NCBI GenBank assembly: GCA_025923075.1
Contig: JAICGN010000002.1
Coordinates: 1 to 64,000 of the forward strand
Direction: 5' to 3'
From: Chitinophagaceae bacterium
GTDB taxonomy: Bacteria > Bacteroidota > Bacteroidia > Chitinophagales > Chitinophagaceae
Length of the DNA: 64,000 bases
Shown here: in pieces, positions 46,290 through 53,370 of the stretch
Layout of the letters: each line of letters starts with the position of its first letter
How positions within the stretch are numbered: the stretch's first letter is position 1
Program-made: the position numbers and the translations under genes
Notes under the pieces: model-generated
What the model was told of the DNA's origin: nothing
The model's database searches: none
Seen by the model: only the letters and a program-made list of their open reading frames with translations

Positions 46290-47102
46290 TCAATATTCTA
46301 TTTCATATTCGAAATAAGAGGCGTCTTCAAAAAAATCATCAAGACTGCCTTCAATCGTAACCTTTTTTCGGTCAGTAGAAAGTTTTACTCCTTTGCCCTC
46401 CGCTTTTTTTGCCGGCCTTGGCAAGTTGAATATCGTTTTCATGGTGGAAGATATGCCCATTTGATTCATCTCTTTCAACGACGCGAGTGTTTTATCATTT
46501 TCAACATTAGCATACTTTTCCTTATTAAGCTTTTTAGAAATTTTTCCCTTCTTATATTCATATTTATAATAATCATCCACCTCACTGATGCTACTGTCTG
46601 ATTTCACATCACCCAAAAGCAGATTGTTATCCATGGCTTTTTTTTCATCTGTTCCACTTGTATCACCACCCATGAATTTCTCCATTTGATCAGCCATCAC
46701 ATTCTGTTTTGTTTTCTTTAACAGGTTATTGATAGTAGCGACGTCGGCTGGCTGAGAATAGGGAAATGAAAAGGCCATCGAGAATATTTCATCCGGCATA
46801 TTCATTATCACTTTCAAGGAGGCTTTATCTATCAATTTTTTTTCTGCATCGGAAAGGTTTTTGATACTATCCCTGATGTCTTTTAGGTAGATGGTAGTGT
46901 CTTTTTTCATTTTATCCATATCTTTCATCCCTTCTTTCTCTCCTGCAACCATTTTTACCATCCCCAGCAATTTTCCCATATCCATCGTGCTTACAAACAA
47001 ACCACTCCCATCATCATTAATAGTAGATTCCTGAACAGTATCAAAACATCCAGATAAAATAAGCAGCGCAGCGATAGCAAAAAACCGGGAAAGCTTTTTC
47101 AT
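46290..47102 (-). CDS. Lipoprotein of unknown function (270 aa)
   Basis: The signal peptide ends in the lipobox LILSGC (Cys19), followed by FDTVQESTINDDGSG. The protein is rich in Met, Lys and Asp. A predicted helical segment contains MVKMVAGEKEGMKDMDKMKK, a second region shows DDYYKYEYKKGKISKKLN, and the C-terminus is acidic with alternating aromatic residues (FFEDASYFEYEIEY). I do not recognise a named domain. It lies downstream of holA, whose terminator separates the two, and convergent to ribF. Confidence 0.75.
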   Translation of the reverse strand: MKKLSRFFAIAALLILSGCFDTVQESTINDDGSGLFVSTMDMGKLLGMVKMVAGEKEGMKDMDKMKKDTTIYLKDIRDSIKNLSDAEKKLIDKASLKVIMNMPDEIFSMAFSFPYSQPADVATINNLLKKTKQNVMADQMEKFMGGDTSGTDEKKAMDNNLLLGDVKSDSSISEVDDYYKYEYKKGKISKKLNKEKYANVENDKTLASLKEMNQMGISSTMKTIFNLPRPAKKAEGKGVKLSTDRKKVTIEGSLDDFFEDASYFEYEIEY

Positions 47103-47148: not shown

Positions 47149-47173
47149 AATTGCTGCTTGCTAAGCAGCAATT
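47149..47173 (-). terminator. Terminator of holA, containing its stop codon
   Basis: AATTGCTGCTT (47149-47159) and AAGCAGCAATT (47163-47173) form a perfect 11-bp stem with a 3-base loop. The holA stop codon is at 47161-47163, inside the hairpin, and TTTCTTTG follows on the minus strand. Confidence 0.75.
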
Positions 47174-48162
47174 ATTTTATAGACCATTTCTTTCAATAAT
47201 GATGCATCCTCAGTGCCAATATCAGCTATTCCAACCGATCTGAGATTGTAGTGATGCAATAACAGGATCGCTTTTTCAACTTCAGGAAAACTATAGGCGT
47301 TTACGGCCTTCAGGTAATCCTTCACAAAAAAAGGGTTTACACCAAGCGATGCGGCTACGGTTTTTTCATCACGGCTGTTCAGGCCATGGATCATGTATAA
47401 TTTGCTGAAAAAGGAATAAAGTGAAGGAAATATCAATTGTATAGGGGCCGCTTTTGGATTATCTTCAAAATATTGAACTATCCGGATGCAACCGGAAAGG
47501 TCTTTTGCAGCTAAGGCATTTTGAAATTCGAAGACATTAAATTCTTTGCTAATGCCAATGAATTGTTCAATATCATCTTCATTGATAGTTTTTCTTTTGC
47601 CAAGGTTGACCAATATCTTTTCTATTTCATTCTCAATTCTGCTCAGGTCATTGCCAATATGATCTACTAATAACATGATTGCTTTGCGGGAAATCTCGTA
47701 GCCATGATTATTAACAATTTCTTCAGTCCATTGGGGAAGCTGATTTTCATAGATCTTTCTGGTGGAAAGTAAAACACCCCGCTCCTTCAGAAGTTTTGCA
47801 AACTTTGTTCGGCCGTCAATTTTTTTGTCCTTATAGGAAACAACAAGAATTGTAGAGCCCAGGGGGTTCTCAACATATGATTCAAGTTTTTCAATATCTT
47901 TCATTTGTTGGGCCTCTTTCAATAATACTACCTGTCGTTCGGAAAACATGGGGTATCGCCGGCATGCATTAATTACATCGGGCCATGCCGCATCTTTGCC
48001 GTAAAACACCGTTAGGTTAAACCCAGTTTCCGCTTCACTCAGAATATTGTGTTCGGCATAGTCCATTACCTTGTCAATAAAGTACTCTTCCTCGCCTTCC
48101 AGCCAGTAAAAAGGCTTATAAACTTTTTTTTTCCACTCGGTTATGATCTTTTCATGCGACAT
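47161..48162 (-). CDS. holA: DNA polymerase III subunit delta
   Basis: HolA is the wrench subunit of the clamp loader and opens the beta clamp. The 333-residue AAA+-like protein shows PFYWLEGEEEYFIDKVMDYA, FYGKDAAWPDVINACRRYPM, SERQVVLLKEAQQMKDIEKL, then HIGNDLSRIENEIEKILVNL and EDDIEQFIGISKEFNVFEFQ, and the C-terminal collar helices. Length is normal. It stands alone between a lipoprotein gene (downstream) and a divergent coiled-coil gene. Confidence 0.94.
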   Translation of the reverse strand: MSHEKIITEWKKKVYKPFYWLEGEEEYFIDKVMDYAEHNILSEAETGFNLTVFYGKDAAWPDVINACRRYPMFSERQVVLLKEAQQMKDIEKLESYVENPLGSTILVVSYKDKKIDGRTKFAKLLKERGVLLSTRKIYENQLPQWTEEIVNNHGYEISRKAIMLLVDHIGNDLSRIENEIEKILVNLGKRKTINEDDIEQFIGISKEFNVFEFQNALAAKDLSGCIRIVQYFEDNPKAAPIQLIFPSLYSFFSKLYMIHGLNSRDEKTVAASLGVNPFFVKDYLKAVNAYSFPEVEKAILLLHHYNLRSVGIADIGTEDASLLKEMVYKIIAA

Positions 48163-48354: not shown

Positions 48355-49332
48355 ATGACAAACACTAATTATCCATCTGCTACAACGACAACAACACCGC
48401 AGAGGAGCAACAATTCTAAAAACATCGTTATTGGGTTGCTCGCAGTAGCCCTGCTTGGTTCCTGGGCCTATTTTCTGATGAAAATCAACAGATCTGACAA
48501 AGAAATCCTTTCTAAAACTGAAGAAGGTGTTCATTACATGAGTCAGCGTGATTCACTGGAGTCTCTTTACAAGTTTACACTTGATAAGTATGATTCAGTT
48601 AGCGTTGCTAATAATGACCTGTCAGGCAAATTGACCGGCAAACAAGCTGAAGTTGCCAAGTTAAAAGGTGAGATCAGCAGTATTTTGAGAAAGAAAAATG
48701 CTACGGCATCAGAACTTGCAAGAGCAAAAACACTTATCGAAGAGCTCAATACGCAAATTGAGACATTACAAGCCGAAGTTACACGGTTAACTGGCGAAAA
48801 TCAGGTCCTGACAACTGAGAAAGCGCAGCTGACTGTTGAAAAGGATTCTTTACAAACAAACCTGACTACAACTCAAGGCGAAAAGAAAGTGCTTGAGGAA
48901 ACAGTTGACGTGGGTTCAACTTTCAGTGCAAGTAATATTGGAATTACCGCGGTAAATGAAAAGAGCGGTGGTAAAGAAAAAGAAACTAGTACGGCCAAGA
49001 AAGTAGACAAATTAGTTGTGTCTTTTAATGTAGAAAACAGGATCGCAAAAAGCGGACCGGCTGACATGTATATCATCGTAACGGCTCCTGATGGGAAAGT
49101 TATTTCAACAGAAACTACAGGTGGCGGTACTTTCACAACAAGACAAGACGGTGACCAGGCGTTCACTTACAAGACAACGCTTAACTATGAGCAAGGTACT
49201 CGTCAGAACGTTCAGATACCAGTGATTCAGGAAAAATTCCAGACTGGTGATTATAAAATCCAGGTTTACCACAACGGTTTCAAGATTGGTGAAGGTGTAA
49301 GAACCTTAAAAAAAGGTGGATTATTTAGCTAA
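48355..49332 (+). CDS. Membrane-anchored coiled-coil protein, paralogue 1 (325 aa)
   Basis: I do not recognise a named family. The order is a short polar Thr-rich N-terminus (cytoplasmic), one membrane segment (NIVIGLLAVALLGSWAYFLM, about residues 24-43) and a long heptad coiled coil (about residues 50-180; ELARAKTLIEELNTQIETLQ is a clear piece). A linker rich in Lys, Glu and Thr follows, then a beta-rich C-terminal domain (residues about 215-325; LVVSFNVENRIAKSG, YKIQVYHNGFKIGEG). The next gene encodes the same architecture, so this is a tandem duplication. The coiled coil is expected in the periplasm with the beta domain at its tip. The gene is followed by a strong terminator. Confidence 0.8.
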   Translation: MTNTNYPSATTTTTPQRSNNSKNIVIGLLAVALLGSWAYFLMKINRSDKEILSKTEEGVHYMSQRDSLESLYKFTLDKYDSVSVANNDLSGKLTGKQAEVAKLKGEISSILRKKNATASELARAKTLIEELNTQIETLQAEVTRLTGENQVLTTEKAQLTVEKDSLQTNLTTTQGEKKVLEETVDVGSTFSASNIGITAVNEKSGGKEKETSTAKKVDKLVVSFNVENRIAKSGPADMYIIVTAPDGKVISTETTGGGTFTTRQDGDQAFTYKTTLNYEQGTRQNVQIPVIQEKFQTGDYKIQVYHNGFKIGEGVRTLKKGGLFS

Positions 49333-49365
49333 TCGCAGATTTAATATAGTTTGATCCAATATCTC

Positions 49366-49390
49366 AGTCCCCCGATTTAATCGGGGGACT
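49366..49390 (+). terminator. Terminator of coiled-coil paralogue 1
   Basis: AGTCCCCCGATT (49366-49377) and AATCGGGGGACT (49379-49390) are perfect 12-base arms followed by TTTTTATTTT. It separates the two paralogues transcriptionally. Confidence 0.95.
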
Positions 49391-49465
49391 TTTTTATTTT
49401 AGATTTTTCCACATTGACATTTTGCCTGCTCCTTGTCTTCAATAATTAATTAGCTTGACCCCCCA

Positions 49466-50392
49466 ATGAGAGATAACAAATCACTTCTTTTAGCGCTGAT
49501 GGCGGGCGGGCTCATTATTACCTGGGTTTACCATATCTATGATAAAAGCCAGTATGCCAACCAAACAAGGGAAGTTTTTGTAAAAGATTCCCTGGCGGTG
49601 GCAGCAGCAGTATCTGATTCCTTGAGACAATACTATACCCGTACACTTGATCAGCTTGGCGACGAAAAGCTGGAGATCGATTCTACTAATAACCTATTGA
49701 AAGGTGAATTGGGTGAAAAAATTACAGAGATCAATAAACTTCGGATCGAGATCGGCAATATTCTGAAAAGAAAAAACCTTACGCAGGCTGACCTTACAGA
49801 AGCGAAAACCAAAATTGATGATCTGCAGCAACGAATAGATCATTTAAAAACTGAAAACACTTCGCTTGCTGACGAAAGGACGAAGTTGAATGGCATACTC
49901 GCTCAGCTAAATGGCGAAATGAATTCTCTTCAACAAAATATGCAAAAAGTAAGCGCTGAAAATAGAGAACTTAGTCAGAAAATTAATGACGCCTCTATTT
50001 TTATTGCCTCAGAAATAAAGTTTGCAGCTGTTGACGTCCGGCCTGATCAAAAAGAGACAGAAACAAACCAGCAGAAGAAGGCCAACAAGTTTGTTACCTC
50101 CTTTACTGTGCAAAACAATATCGTTGACCTTGAGAGCGCCGAAGTTGTTGTTGTCGTTTCAGATCCTTCAGGCAAATCCCTGAATACAGAGGTTTGGGAT
50201 GCAGGCAGTTTTGAAACGAAGACTGAGGGGCGGAAAATTTATACAAGGAAGGTGAGATTTGAATATAATAAGGGTGAACCCAAACATTTGATTTTTTCAC
50301 TGGAACCGGAGAGTTTTGAAAAAGGGGTTTACAAGATCAGTCTTTATCACAATGGCGTTCGCATCGGTGAATCAAGTTGGAAGCTTAGTTGA
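49466..50392 (+). CDS. Membrane-anchored coiled-coil protein, paralogue 2 (308 aa)
   Basis: The layout equals that of the preceding gene: membrane segment near the N-terminus (SLLLALMAGGLIITWVYHIY), coiled coil (about residues 35-175), linker with KKANK, and a beta-rich C-terminal domain ending KISLYHNGVRIGESSWKLS (compare KIQVYHNGFKIGEGVRTLKK in paralogue 1). Both also share IGNILKRKNLTQADL / ISSILRKKNATASEL within the coil. The N-terminal polar tail of paralogue 1 is missing. Function is unknown. The start MRDNKSLLLALMAG is the only suitable ATG. Confidence 0.8.
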   Translation: MRDNKSLLLALMAGGLIITWVYHIYDKSQYANQTREVFVKDSLAVAAAVSDSLRQYYTRTLDQLGDEKLEIDSTNNLLKGELGEKITEINKLRIEIGNILKRKNLTQADLTEAKTKIDDLQQRIDHLKTENTSLADERTKLNGILAQLNGEMNSLQQNMQKVSAENRELSQKINDASIFIASEIKFAAVDVRPDQKETETNQQKKANKFVTSFTVQNNIVDLESAEVVVVVSDPSGKSLNTEVWDAGSFETKTEGRKIYTRKVRFEYNKGEPKHLIFSLEPESFEKGVYKISLYHNGVRIGESSWKLS

Positions 50393-50463: not shown

Positions 50464-53370
50464 TTAGAAAATATTATAGCCATAGCTCACATAGTACAGC
50501 CCACCAACATAAGGACTTCCATAACCAGTCCTTGCATAGTGATTAAGTATGTTGGTGCCTCCGATTCTGAATAAGCTTTTGCTTTTTGGCATCCTGTAGC
50601 TTACCTGTGCATCTACCCATGTAAACGCGGGCAGTTGGCCTGCCACAAAAGTTCCTTCGTAATTATTATAATTCTGCCATTTGGCAATTATATTAAAACC
50701 AATCCCCTTCCAAACATTATCATTACGAAGGCTAAGATTTGCCCGAAGGTCAGGTGCATTAAAATAAGTAATAAAACCGTCGGGAACATCTTTTAATTTG
50801 TCAGAGAATACATTACCTGCTATAATATAACGACGTGGAAGTTGGTACTCTAAAGTAACACCCCAACCACTAGCTTTTACAACATCTGTGCTATTTTGTG
50901 TGTAAGAATAGCCTGTTGATGCAAGAGGATTAAGTGCATTTGTTGGAGTCGCCGCTTTTACCACTGCAACACTTGCAAAGAAATTCTGATAGCGACTGTA
51001 ATATGCATAGGCATCAACAAATAATTTCTTTCCAAGAATTCCTTTGTAGCCGATCTCGCCGGACGAAACGCTTTCTGGATTTACGTCAGTGAAAGTAGAC
51101 GGCTGAAGCAAAGCGGGATTAAAGGCAGCTCTTGCTGCAGAAACTGATTCAGCTGTATATGTGCCGGTATTTAAACCATAATAGGCAATAAACTCAGGCA
51201 ATGCGCCTATAAGGGTAACAGAGCCTGTGTTTAAATCTATGTATTGGTTTTGATTCGTTGGAAAGCGATAGGCTGTTTGAAAAGACAAACGGATATTGTT
51301 GTCTTCTGCCACTCTCATTACGGCTGTAACTCTTGGCGTCCAGCGGCCATCAAAATTCGTTTGCACATCATAGCGAATCGCGCCGGTAAGTGTGAGAAAC
51401 TCATCAAATAGTTTTTTCTTTAGTTGCACATAACCTCCCGTTTCACTGATCTTAATTGCTCCCGCACTATCTGCAAAAATTGTCCCTTGTGAATTCATCA
51501 CCCATTGCTTCCATTGCAAGCCTGCGATGATCTCTAATTTGTCTGAGAACTCGAAAGCATCAGAAACATTTACCTGGCCTTCGGCAGCCCACAGGTCAGA
51601 ACGATCAAGAAATTTAGCCCCGCCTTTTCCGATGGGAGTTGTACTTATTCTTTCTTTGGACGCTAGAAATGCTGAAGTGCCAGGCAAAGGCCGTCCGGCA
51701 TCTACTGTAGATCTCGCTGTTGCATGAGCATTTGCCTCACCTGGCGTGGCGCCCGCATTATAAACCGCGTTTTTATATGTGGTATAGGCCATAACATAAG
51801 TCGGATACCATACAGTGCTTGGTGAAAATGCTTCCTGCATTAATCTTCCAAGAGCAGTTGCCTGGTAAGCGCCACCGGCGTTTTCCTGTGTGGTATAACC
51901 ACGAACAAACCAGTTCTTATGGCGGACCTCAAGTTTATGCTGTGCCATAATAAAATCCTTAAGCGAGTAGCGATCGGCACCGGTGTAAACAGTAGTACCA
52001 GTTCCCCAATATGTATTCCATGATGCTTCGATGCCCGGCGTGATCTTATAATGCAGGCCCGCAGTGAATTTAAAATTCAATGCACTATAATCCACAAGGT
52101 CCCTTTCATTATAACCGGTTCTTGACACATTAGCAGTTTGCGCTATCCAGTTGTTCCGTAAGCCCCAATACAGTGGATCAAATTGCATAAGAGTTGGCTG
52201 CAAGGCAGCAGGATACATCGCATATACTGCATTTCTTGTTGCCTGGTTGGCGCCATTTGGTATTTGGGCATTTAAGTTGGTAACAATGTTTGGAATAAGT
52301 CCACCGGAAGCCGTATTAACGCCTGCTATATATGCCTGTTGAACAGCTTGTCCCACAAGAAAAATATTAGCGCTGGTCTCATCGCCGTATACGTTTATTC
52401 CATCATAATTAGGATCGGTATTTCTATCGCCGGGAATTACCTTACTCAGTACACTTGTTCTTGCAACATTATCATAGTCGTTGGCCTCCCAATCTTCTGC
52501 TTTTACCAATTGCCATGTAAGCTTGAAGGCGATCTTATTATTAAATGCTTTTGCCCAACGCATCGTCCAATCATAATAAGGTGCTGCAGGTCTTTGTTTG
52601 CCATCCACATGCATAATGCCTTGCTTGACATTAAAACTAAAACCCTGGTATTTGAAAGGATTCTTGCTGGTAATAAGAAGTGTTCCATTCATTCCACCCG
52701 AACCATATAAAGCAGATGATGCGCCGGATAACAGTTCCATATTATCAACATCGAGTTCTGTAAGACCAACTATGTTGCCAACTGAAAAATTCAAACCCGG
52801 TGCCTGGTTATCCATTCCATCGATCAATTGATTAAATCTTGTATTACCACTACTAACGAAACCACGTGTCGTAATCGTTCTGAAACCGATGCTGGCAGTG
52901 TGCATATCCACGCCTTTAAGGTTTGCCAGTGCTTCATAATAGTTTGGGACAGCAGCATTGCGAAGCGCAGTAGAGCTTAATCTTTCTACTGTAACCGGGG
53001 CGTCAATTATACGTTGTTGTGATCGGGCAGCAGCCACAACGACTTCCTGGCCTATCGTAATTCTGGCAGCCAGCTCAACTTCTAATGGAGAAGTTGTGCT
53101 GCTTATCTCCATTTCTTTCATTTCAAATTCTGCGTGAGTTAAAACCAAGGTAACCGGAAGTTTTGCGGAAGTATTAATTGAAAAATATCCATTATCATCC
53201 GTATACGTTCCTAACGCGGTTCCTTTTATAACAACCGAGACTGCAGGAATCGGATCTTTTGTAGTGGAATTGCGAATGGTTCCGCTTATGGTTACGGCTT
53301 GCGCCAAAGTCTGGAGTGAAAATAATACAGTAATCAGGCAAGCAGCCGTAAAGCGCAGGCTTTTACTCAT
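50464..53370 (-). CDS. TonB-dependent receptor
   Basis: The 968-residue outer-membrane receptor starts with a signal peptide (MSKSLRFTAACLITVLFSLQ, then TLA). A carboxypeptidase-regulatory-like domain follows (TISGTIRNSTTKDPIPAVSV, GTYTDDNGYFSINTS). The TonB plug has APVTVERLSSTALRNAAV, YYEALANLKGVDMHTASIGF, TTRGF and SSALYGSGGMNGTLLITSKN. A long beta-barrel follows, ending in the aromatic strand YVSYGYNIF. The central extracellular loops are rich in Ala, Asn and Thr. No SusD-like gene is next to it, so the ligand is probably not a glycan of the SusCD type; metals, peptides or vitamins are possible. Confidence 0.94.
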   Translation of the reverse strand: MSKSLRFTAACLITVLFSLQTLAQAVTISGTIRNSTTKDPIPAVSVVIKGTALGTYTDDNGYFSINTSAKLPVTLVLTHAEFEMKEMEISSTTSPLEVELAARITIGQEVVVAAARSQQRIIDAPVTVERLSSTALRNAAVPNYYEALANLKGVDMHTASIGFRTITTRGFVSSGNTRFNQLIDGMDNQAPGLNFSVGNIVGLTELDVDNMELLSGASSALYGSGGMNGTLLITSKNPFKYQGFSFNVKQGIMHVDGKQRPAAPYYDWTMRWAKAFNNKIAFKLTWQLVKAEDWEANDYDNVARTSVLSKVIPGDRNTDPNYDGINVYGDETSANIFLVGQAVQQAYIAGVNTASGGLIPNIVTNLNAQIPNGANQATRNAVYAMYPAALQPTLMQFDPLYWGLRNNWIAQTANVSRTGYNERDLVDYSALNFKFTAGLHYKITPGIEASWNTYWGTGTTVYTGADRYSLKDFIMAQHKLEVRHKNWFVRGYTTQENAGGAYQATALGRLMQEAFSPSTVWYPTYVMAYTTYKNAVYNAGATPGEANAHATARSTVDAGRPLPGTSAFLASKERISTTPIGKGGAKFLDRSDLWAAEGQVNVSDAFEFSDKLEIIAGLQWKQWVMNSQGTIFADSAGAIKISETGGYVQLKKKLFDEFLTLTGAIRYDVQTNFDGRWTPRVTAVMRVAEDNNIRLSFQTAYRFPTNQNQYIDLNTGSVTLIGALPEFIAYYGLNTGTYTAESVSAARAAFNPALLQPSTFTDVNPESVSSGEIGYKGILGKKLFVDAYAYYSRYQNFFASVAVVKAATPTNALNPLASTGYSYTQNSTDVVKASGWGVTLEYQLPRRYIIAGNVFSDKLKDVPDGFITYFNAPDLRANLSLRNDNVWKGIGFNIIAKWQNYNNYEGTFVAGQLPAFTWVDAQVSYRMPKSKSLFRIGGTNILNHYARTGYGSPYVGGLYYVSYGYNIF

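Follow-up and report, generated by a model that had tools for sequence, protein, structure and literature searches.

Two paralogous membrane proteins and their neighborhood

The window, meaning the whole stretch of DNA that was analyzed, comprises 64,000 nt of a Chitinophagaceae bacterium (GCA_025923075.1, contig JAICGN010000002.1, positions 1–64,000, forward strand). Two adjacent genes on its plus strand are the subject of this report: gene A (48355–49332), which encodes a predicted 325-aa bitopic membrane protein with a coiled coil and an Ig-like domain, and gene B (49466–50392), which encodes a 308-aa paralog. A first, sequence-only reading of this DNA had proposed both open reading frames and their paralogy. 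These proposals are borne out: a search of the whole genome with A recovers, apart from A, only B (35% identity across residues 15–315, E = 4.9e-47). The two proteins also share the YHNGxxIGE motif that the reading had noticed, which is conserved across the A/B family; it reads YHNGFKIGE in A (49267–49293, in the last two strands) and YHNGVRIGE in B (50345–50371). B lacks the N-terminal tail of A (TNYPSA...) as well as its C-terminal KKGGLFS. Between the genes, 3′ of A, we confirmed a strong intrinsic terminator on the plus strand (49366–49390; 11 bp, folding energy −20 kcal/mol, z = −5.1), which supports the earlier suggestion that A and B are transcribed separately. A similar hairpin also follows A in at least 8 of the 11 relatives scanned.

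Upstream lies holA (DNA polymerase III delta; 47161–48162, minus strand), which in most relatives from Chitinophagaceae is transcribed divergently from A. Beside holA, a putative lipoprotein with an LSGC motif and no Pfam family (46290–47102, minus strand) keeps its position mainly in the B-carrying Chitinophagaceae group; three genomes (L097, L144, and L156) have the lipoprotein without B. In other Chitinophagales (L033:6980-7705, L029, L034, L041, L045, and others), the gene divergent from A encodes a PolB-like 3′–5′ exonuclease (DNA_pol_B_exo2), which often adjoins holA, and elsewhere it encodes a TPMT-like methyltransferase. One sequence titled Williamsia sp., Actinomycetota (L167, JADCRZ010000037.1), shows a typical Chitinophagaceae holA-A locus and is probably a mislabeled or contaminated genome.

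Downstream, a TonB-dependent receptor (50464–53370, minus strand) is adjacent to and convergent with B, as the sequence-only reading had pointed out. This placement raises the idea that the pair works for the receptor, say as an energy link of the TonB kind, which we consider very unlikely. Whether or not a locus has B, the receptor and purC follow (L096, L097, L099, and L107 are loci without it), so the adjacency is background synteny and says little about function. In addition, A sits among very different genes in other parts of the class, and convergent genes are not co-transcribed.

Both proteins begin with a single N-terminal hydrophobic helix, at residues 21–44 or so in A (48415–48486) and about 6–25 in B (49481–49540), with best 19-residue Kyte-Doolittle means of 2.25 and 1.82, respectively. 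For about 140–150 residues after this helix, hydrophobicity repeats with a period of 3.5, which is the coiled-coil period (power 7.3 and 8.8, with other periods at or below 2.6). An AlphaFold2 model of A, built with 98 relatives in the alignment (mean pLDDT 82.7), places helices at residues 21–88, 94–112, and 118–186 and strands across 190–319, which form a beta sandwich. We therefore describe A as a predicted transmembrane helix that runs on into a helical rod (residues 45–186, 48487–48912, with breaks at 89–93 and 113–117), followed by an Ig/FnIII-like sandwich without a Pfam family (residues 190–319, 48922–49311). By periodicity and homology to A, the coiled-coil region of B covers residues 27–178 or thereabouts (49544–49999), and by homology its beta domain covers 50006–50389. 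The previously suggested order of membrane helix, coiled coil, and beta domain thus stands, but the separate Lys-rich linker does not, as the stretch in question (about A200–219) is a conserved part of the beta domain that follows the first strand in the model.

Foldseek searches with the A model give their best matches, at E of about 1e-5, to proteins with FnIII/Ig-like sandwiches, including the domains of GH3 beta-glucosidases. However, TM-scores against the GH3 domains are at most 0.27 over the whole query and identities are 10–14%. On these model comparisons, the likeness would be one of generic fold and would not imply shared function; a generic Ig/FnIII resemblance is the only one that the beta domain shows. 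The two helical halves are each about 69 residues long; among relatives they vary in length without one compensating for the other, which is expected if the rod is extended and not folded back as a full hairpin. We rejected a full antiparallel hairpin of the two halves on this independent change in length, the coupling map being too noisy to decide. Some couplings in this noisy map cluster near residue 115 (K113-E120, S109-E120, and L103-E130), and a local kink there is possible.

Two sequence patterns bear on topology. Of the two beta-domain cysteines, Cys223 and Cys287, 16 sequences have both, 181 have neither, and none has just one (kinship ignored), which is the pattern a disulfide would give and favors the periplasm. 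Charge around the membrane helix is biased as well, with the more positive flank on the N-terminal side in 69% of sequences and on the C-terminal side in 8%. Together, these patterns lend indirect support to a periplasmic location of the A/B beta domain. The earlier picture of hetero-oligomeric periplasmic rods holds in part: the proteins appear to be rod-like and probably extracytoplasmic, but we found nothing that shows A-B hetero-oligomers.

A nameless family of the class Bacteroidia and the duplication that produced B

As the sequence-only reading had it, A and B belong to no named family. Neither Pfam nor NCBIfam offers a model for the beta domain, and the matches listed fall on the coiled coil, below cut-offs; sequence searches of Pfam, NCBIfam, PADLOC, and the PDB returned coiled-coil matches only. 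A beta-domain profile searched against the PDB had its best match in a sliding clamp (E = 0.06), which we take as chance. Our literature searches found nothing on the A/B family, nor on an exported Ppx in Bacteroidota. The layout itself has precedents. MreC, a cell-shape protein, is likewise bitopic, with a coiled coil and then a beta domain, but the NCBIfam MreC model touches only the coiled coil, at 13 bits against a cut-off of 343, and no MreC model was among the Pfam matches listed for A and B. Short matches confined to the coiled coil were also obtained with the Pfam models for DivIC/FtsB (22.1 bits in B against a cut-off of 28.9; not among the matches shown for A) and for the YbgF/TolA-binding trimerization coiled coil (21.5 bits against 30.1).

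The family is widespread in the class. An order-level sample yielded a homolog, mostly single-copy, in 40 of 41 genomes, and a first profile (A1) found full-length matches in 91 of the 105 Bacteroidia genomes searched; the remaining 14 fall in three families (eight in f20, five in f21, and one in f1). Outside the class, among the matches listed, this profile covered the rod part only. With a wider profile (A6), each of the 11 further families of the class that were searched yielded full-length members, and the 20 genomes from outside the class yielded none. A and B of the window both match by profile at full length, across rod and beta domain. A search of a plasmid collection added a member in a Phocaeicola massiliensis record (E = 5e-59), beside a malate dehydrogenase-like gene, which indicates that Bacteroidales possess the family. 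Although titled “plasmid 82,” this record (L229, OY726056.1) may be part of a chromosome. On these profile searches, A belongs to an undescribed, usually single-copy core family of Bacteroidia. Such a near-universal, nameless envelope protein, found in gut Bacteroidales as well, makes an attractive subject for genetic work in tractable laboratory strains.

We also considered whether the family belongs to the machinery of type IX secretion or gliding, as GldM/PorM do. These Bacteroidota proteins have one inner-membrane helix, a helical periplasmic stalk, and beta domains, a layout similar to that of A and B, and in a Pfam scan of 45 beta domains one member touched GldM_2nd (E = 0.039). Nevertheless, GldM ORFs are about 500 aa long with several domain models, and no GldM domain scored above the Pfam cut-off in A, B, or the 45 beta domains. 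The presence patterns also disagree in 18 of the 105 class genomes (14 with GldM but not the family, 4 with the family but not GldM), and we reject the identity on this distribution, which leaves the idea extremely improbable. In family f20, all eight sampled genomes (G051, G133, G248, G303, G315, G319, G345, and G362) lack the A family and keep GldM; the wider profile found short or coiled-coil matches only, and the two that were inspected were taken for membrane-fusion proteins.

The tandem arrangement emphasized in the sequence-only reading does occur in relatives, but it is a secondary feature of a class-wide A family. In the 80 nearest loci, which come from named genomes, B is near A in 41, either directly 3′ of it or one to two genes further. 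In the tree, the B copies without exception group in one clade (SH-aLRT 100%), whose stem is long (1.17 changes per site). This points to one duplication, fast early change, and then retention; dN/dS was uninformative, as synonymous sites are saturated in most pairs. Based on this phylogeny, B arose by a single duplication inside Chitinophagaceae, and the pair in the window is a local duplication in a normally single-copy family. A third, more diverged paralog (31–35% identity to A) directly follows A in L104 and L116 (L116:7187-7885); L116 also has C, a gene described below, and B, and L104 has neither.

The sequence-only reading proposed that A and B could form hetero-oligomeric rods, with their separate transcription setting the ratio of the two. 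The shared architecture, the tandem genes with a terminator between them, and the similar lengths of the two coiled-coil regions fit such a pairing. However, most of the class has A alone, indicating that A does not need B, and B is without both conserved tails of A. Pairing would also leave unexplained why B tracks gene C, and we consider hetero-oligomeric rods unlikely.

An exported Ppx/GppA-fold protein that accompanies B

In 23 of the 80 nearest loci, a gene of about 382 codons, here termed C, lies between A and B, on the same strand as both in 22 of the 23. The gap between C and B is at most 78 nt in 18 of 21 loci measured, with no clear terminator, and many loci have terminator-like hairpins after A. 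This suggests that C and B form an operon-like unit separate from A. In the genome of the window, C is on a different contig (G000:C34:20463-21578) and is 65% identical to the C of L102; Pfam found no match in this C or in the gene directly upstream on the same strand.

Every C protein aligned has a hydrophobic, signal-peptide-like N-terminus, mostly followed by a small-x-small-Gln site, and C is thus predicted to be exported. Its motifs YTGIEVGSKGVKMS, FLIDIGSGNTKGG, and NIAVSGGIAWA look like ASKHA-fold phosphate and nucleotide motifs. An AlphaFold2 model of C (mean pLDDT 74.1) has its best Foldseek matches in the PDB to Ppx/GppA (E = 4e-11) and then to NTPDases (5e-9), and on this model C is assigned a Ppx/GppA fold. 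Pfam finds no match in the Chitinophagaceae C proteins, and the Ppx-GppA model is passed by a Flavobacteriaceae relative only (2e-15), which is encoded two genes away from a member of the A/B family. This Flavobacteriaceae cluster (L205:4253-9866) encodes, all on one strand, the C relative, an MFS transporter, the A/B-family member, and a DUF5686 protein.

C shares with Ppx/GppA and the NTPDases the fold, P-loop-like motifs, and an invariant Glu, E158, which aligns by eye with the catalytic Glu of Ppx (which we take to be E121 in the E. coli enzyme), an alignment that serves as a lead and not a test. It differs in having a signal peptide, in the absence of a Pfam match for its Chitinophagaceae members, and in the residue that follows the second phosphate motif, which is Lys rather than Glu (DIGSGNTK).

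The presence of B closely follows that of C among close relatives. Across 68 genomes, 40 have both genes, 25 have neither (in five of these, L159, L160, L162, L169, and L170, the absence of B was checked at the locus only), three have B alone (L100, L114, and L127), and none has C alone (Fisher p = 1e-15, kinship ignored). Where B has no adjacent C, whole-genome searches found C elsewhere in 12 of 15 genomes. In L130, L131, and L134, which have C, the B copy is located away from the immediate neighborhood of A. On the tree of A, there are six independent contrasts, in which C follows B in five and opposes it in none; the sign test gives p = 0.0625, the lowest value attainable. The co-occurrence is restricted to one clade. 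Outside the 68-genome set, C in G433 and more distant C-like proteins in G129 and G444 occur without a B-type copy, and neither A nor B was found in G429, which has a C or C-like protein. The rule is therefore not universal. Within the clade, that B is found almost only with C suggests that the two work together, which provides a concrete lead toward a function.

Alternatively, B may be a diverged duplicate with an A-like role, linked to C by clade inheritance and chance gene order. Both genes are mainly limited to one subclade, the independent contrasts number only six, and a block deletion of adjacent C and B would remove both together. Against this, B and C are retained together while unlinked in at least 16 genomes (the window genus, G425, G330, L101, L117, L118, L122–L124, L129, L133, L135, and L147), and some lineages (L097 with L156; L146) lack both genes, which in their relatives are unlinked. 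Furthermore, a related C sits two genes from an A/B-family member in the Flavobacteriaceae genome. We consider inheritance and chance a possible but doubtful explanation.

Proposed roles of A, B, and C

The reading that we favor, at a little less than an even chance, is that A is a structural rod of the envelope and that B is a specialized copy that tethers, docks, or regulates the putative hydrolase C in the periplasm. A would start with a short tail in the cytoplasm, cross the inner membrane with one helix, and extend a coiled-coil rod into the periplasm that bears the Ig-like domain at its far end. We infer the oligomeric state of both A and B; A would probably be a self-associating structural or tethering protein. 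In an ancestor of a Chitinophagaceae subgroup, a single duplication of A gave rise to B, which may then have become dedicated to C, docking, positioning, or regulating this exported, putative phosphoanhydride hydrolase of Ppx/GppA fold, whose gene often lies immediately 5′ of B. We infer physical contact of B with C, as well as the activity and substrate of C. The tracking of B with C suggests that phosphoanhydride chemistry takes place in the periplasm, a compartment not expected to contain ATP.

A more specific version, which we put forward as speculative and doubt somewhat, is that B and C make up a membrane-tethered periplasmic system in which an Ig-tipped rod, derived by copying from a core envelope protein, recruits an exported, exopolyphosphatase-like C or senses its state, and that A may do likewise for another partner in all Bacteroidia. 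As a separate observation, L193 encodes a larger exported protein (L193:7132-8541) in which TPR repeats are fused to a C-like Ppx/GppA domain. Adjoining genes encode a membrane protein with a coiled coil and what may be a lipoprotein of the vWA type; this is perhaps another exported Ppx-type system.
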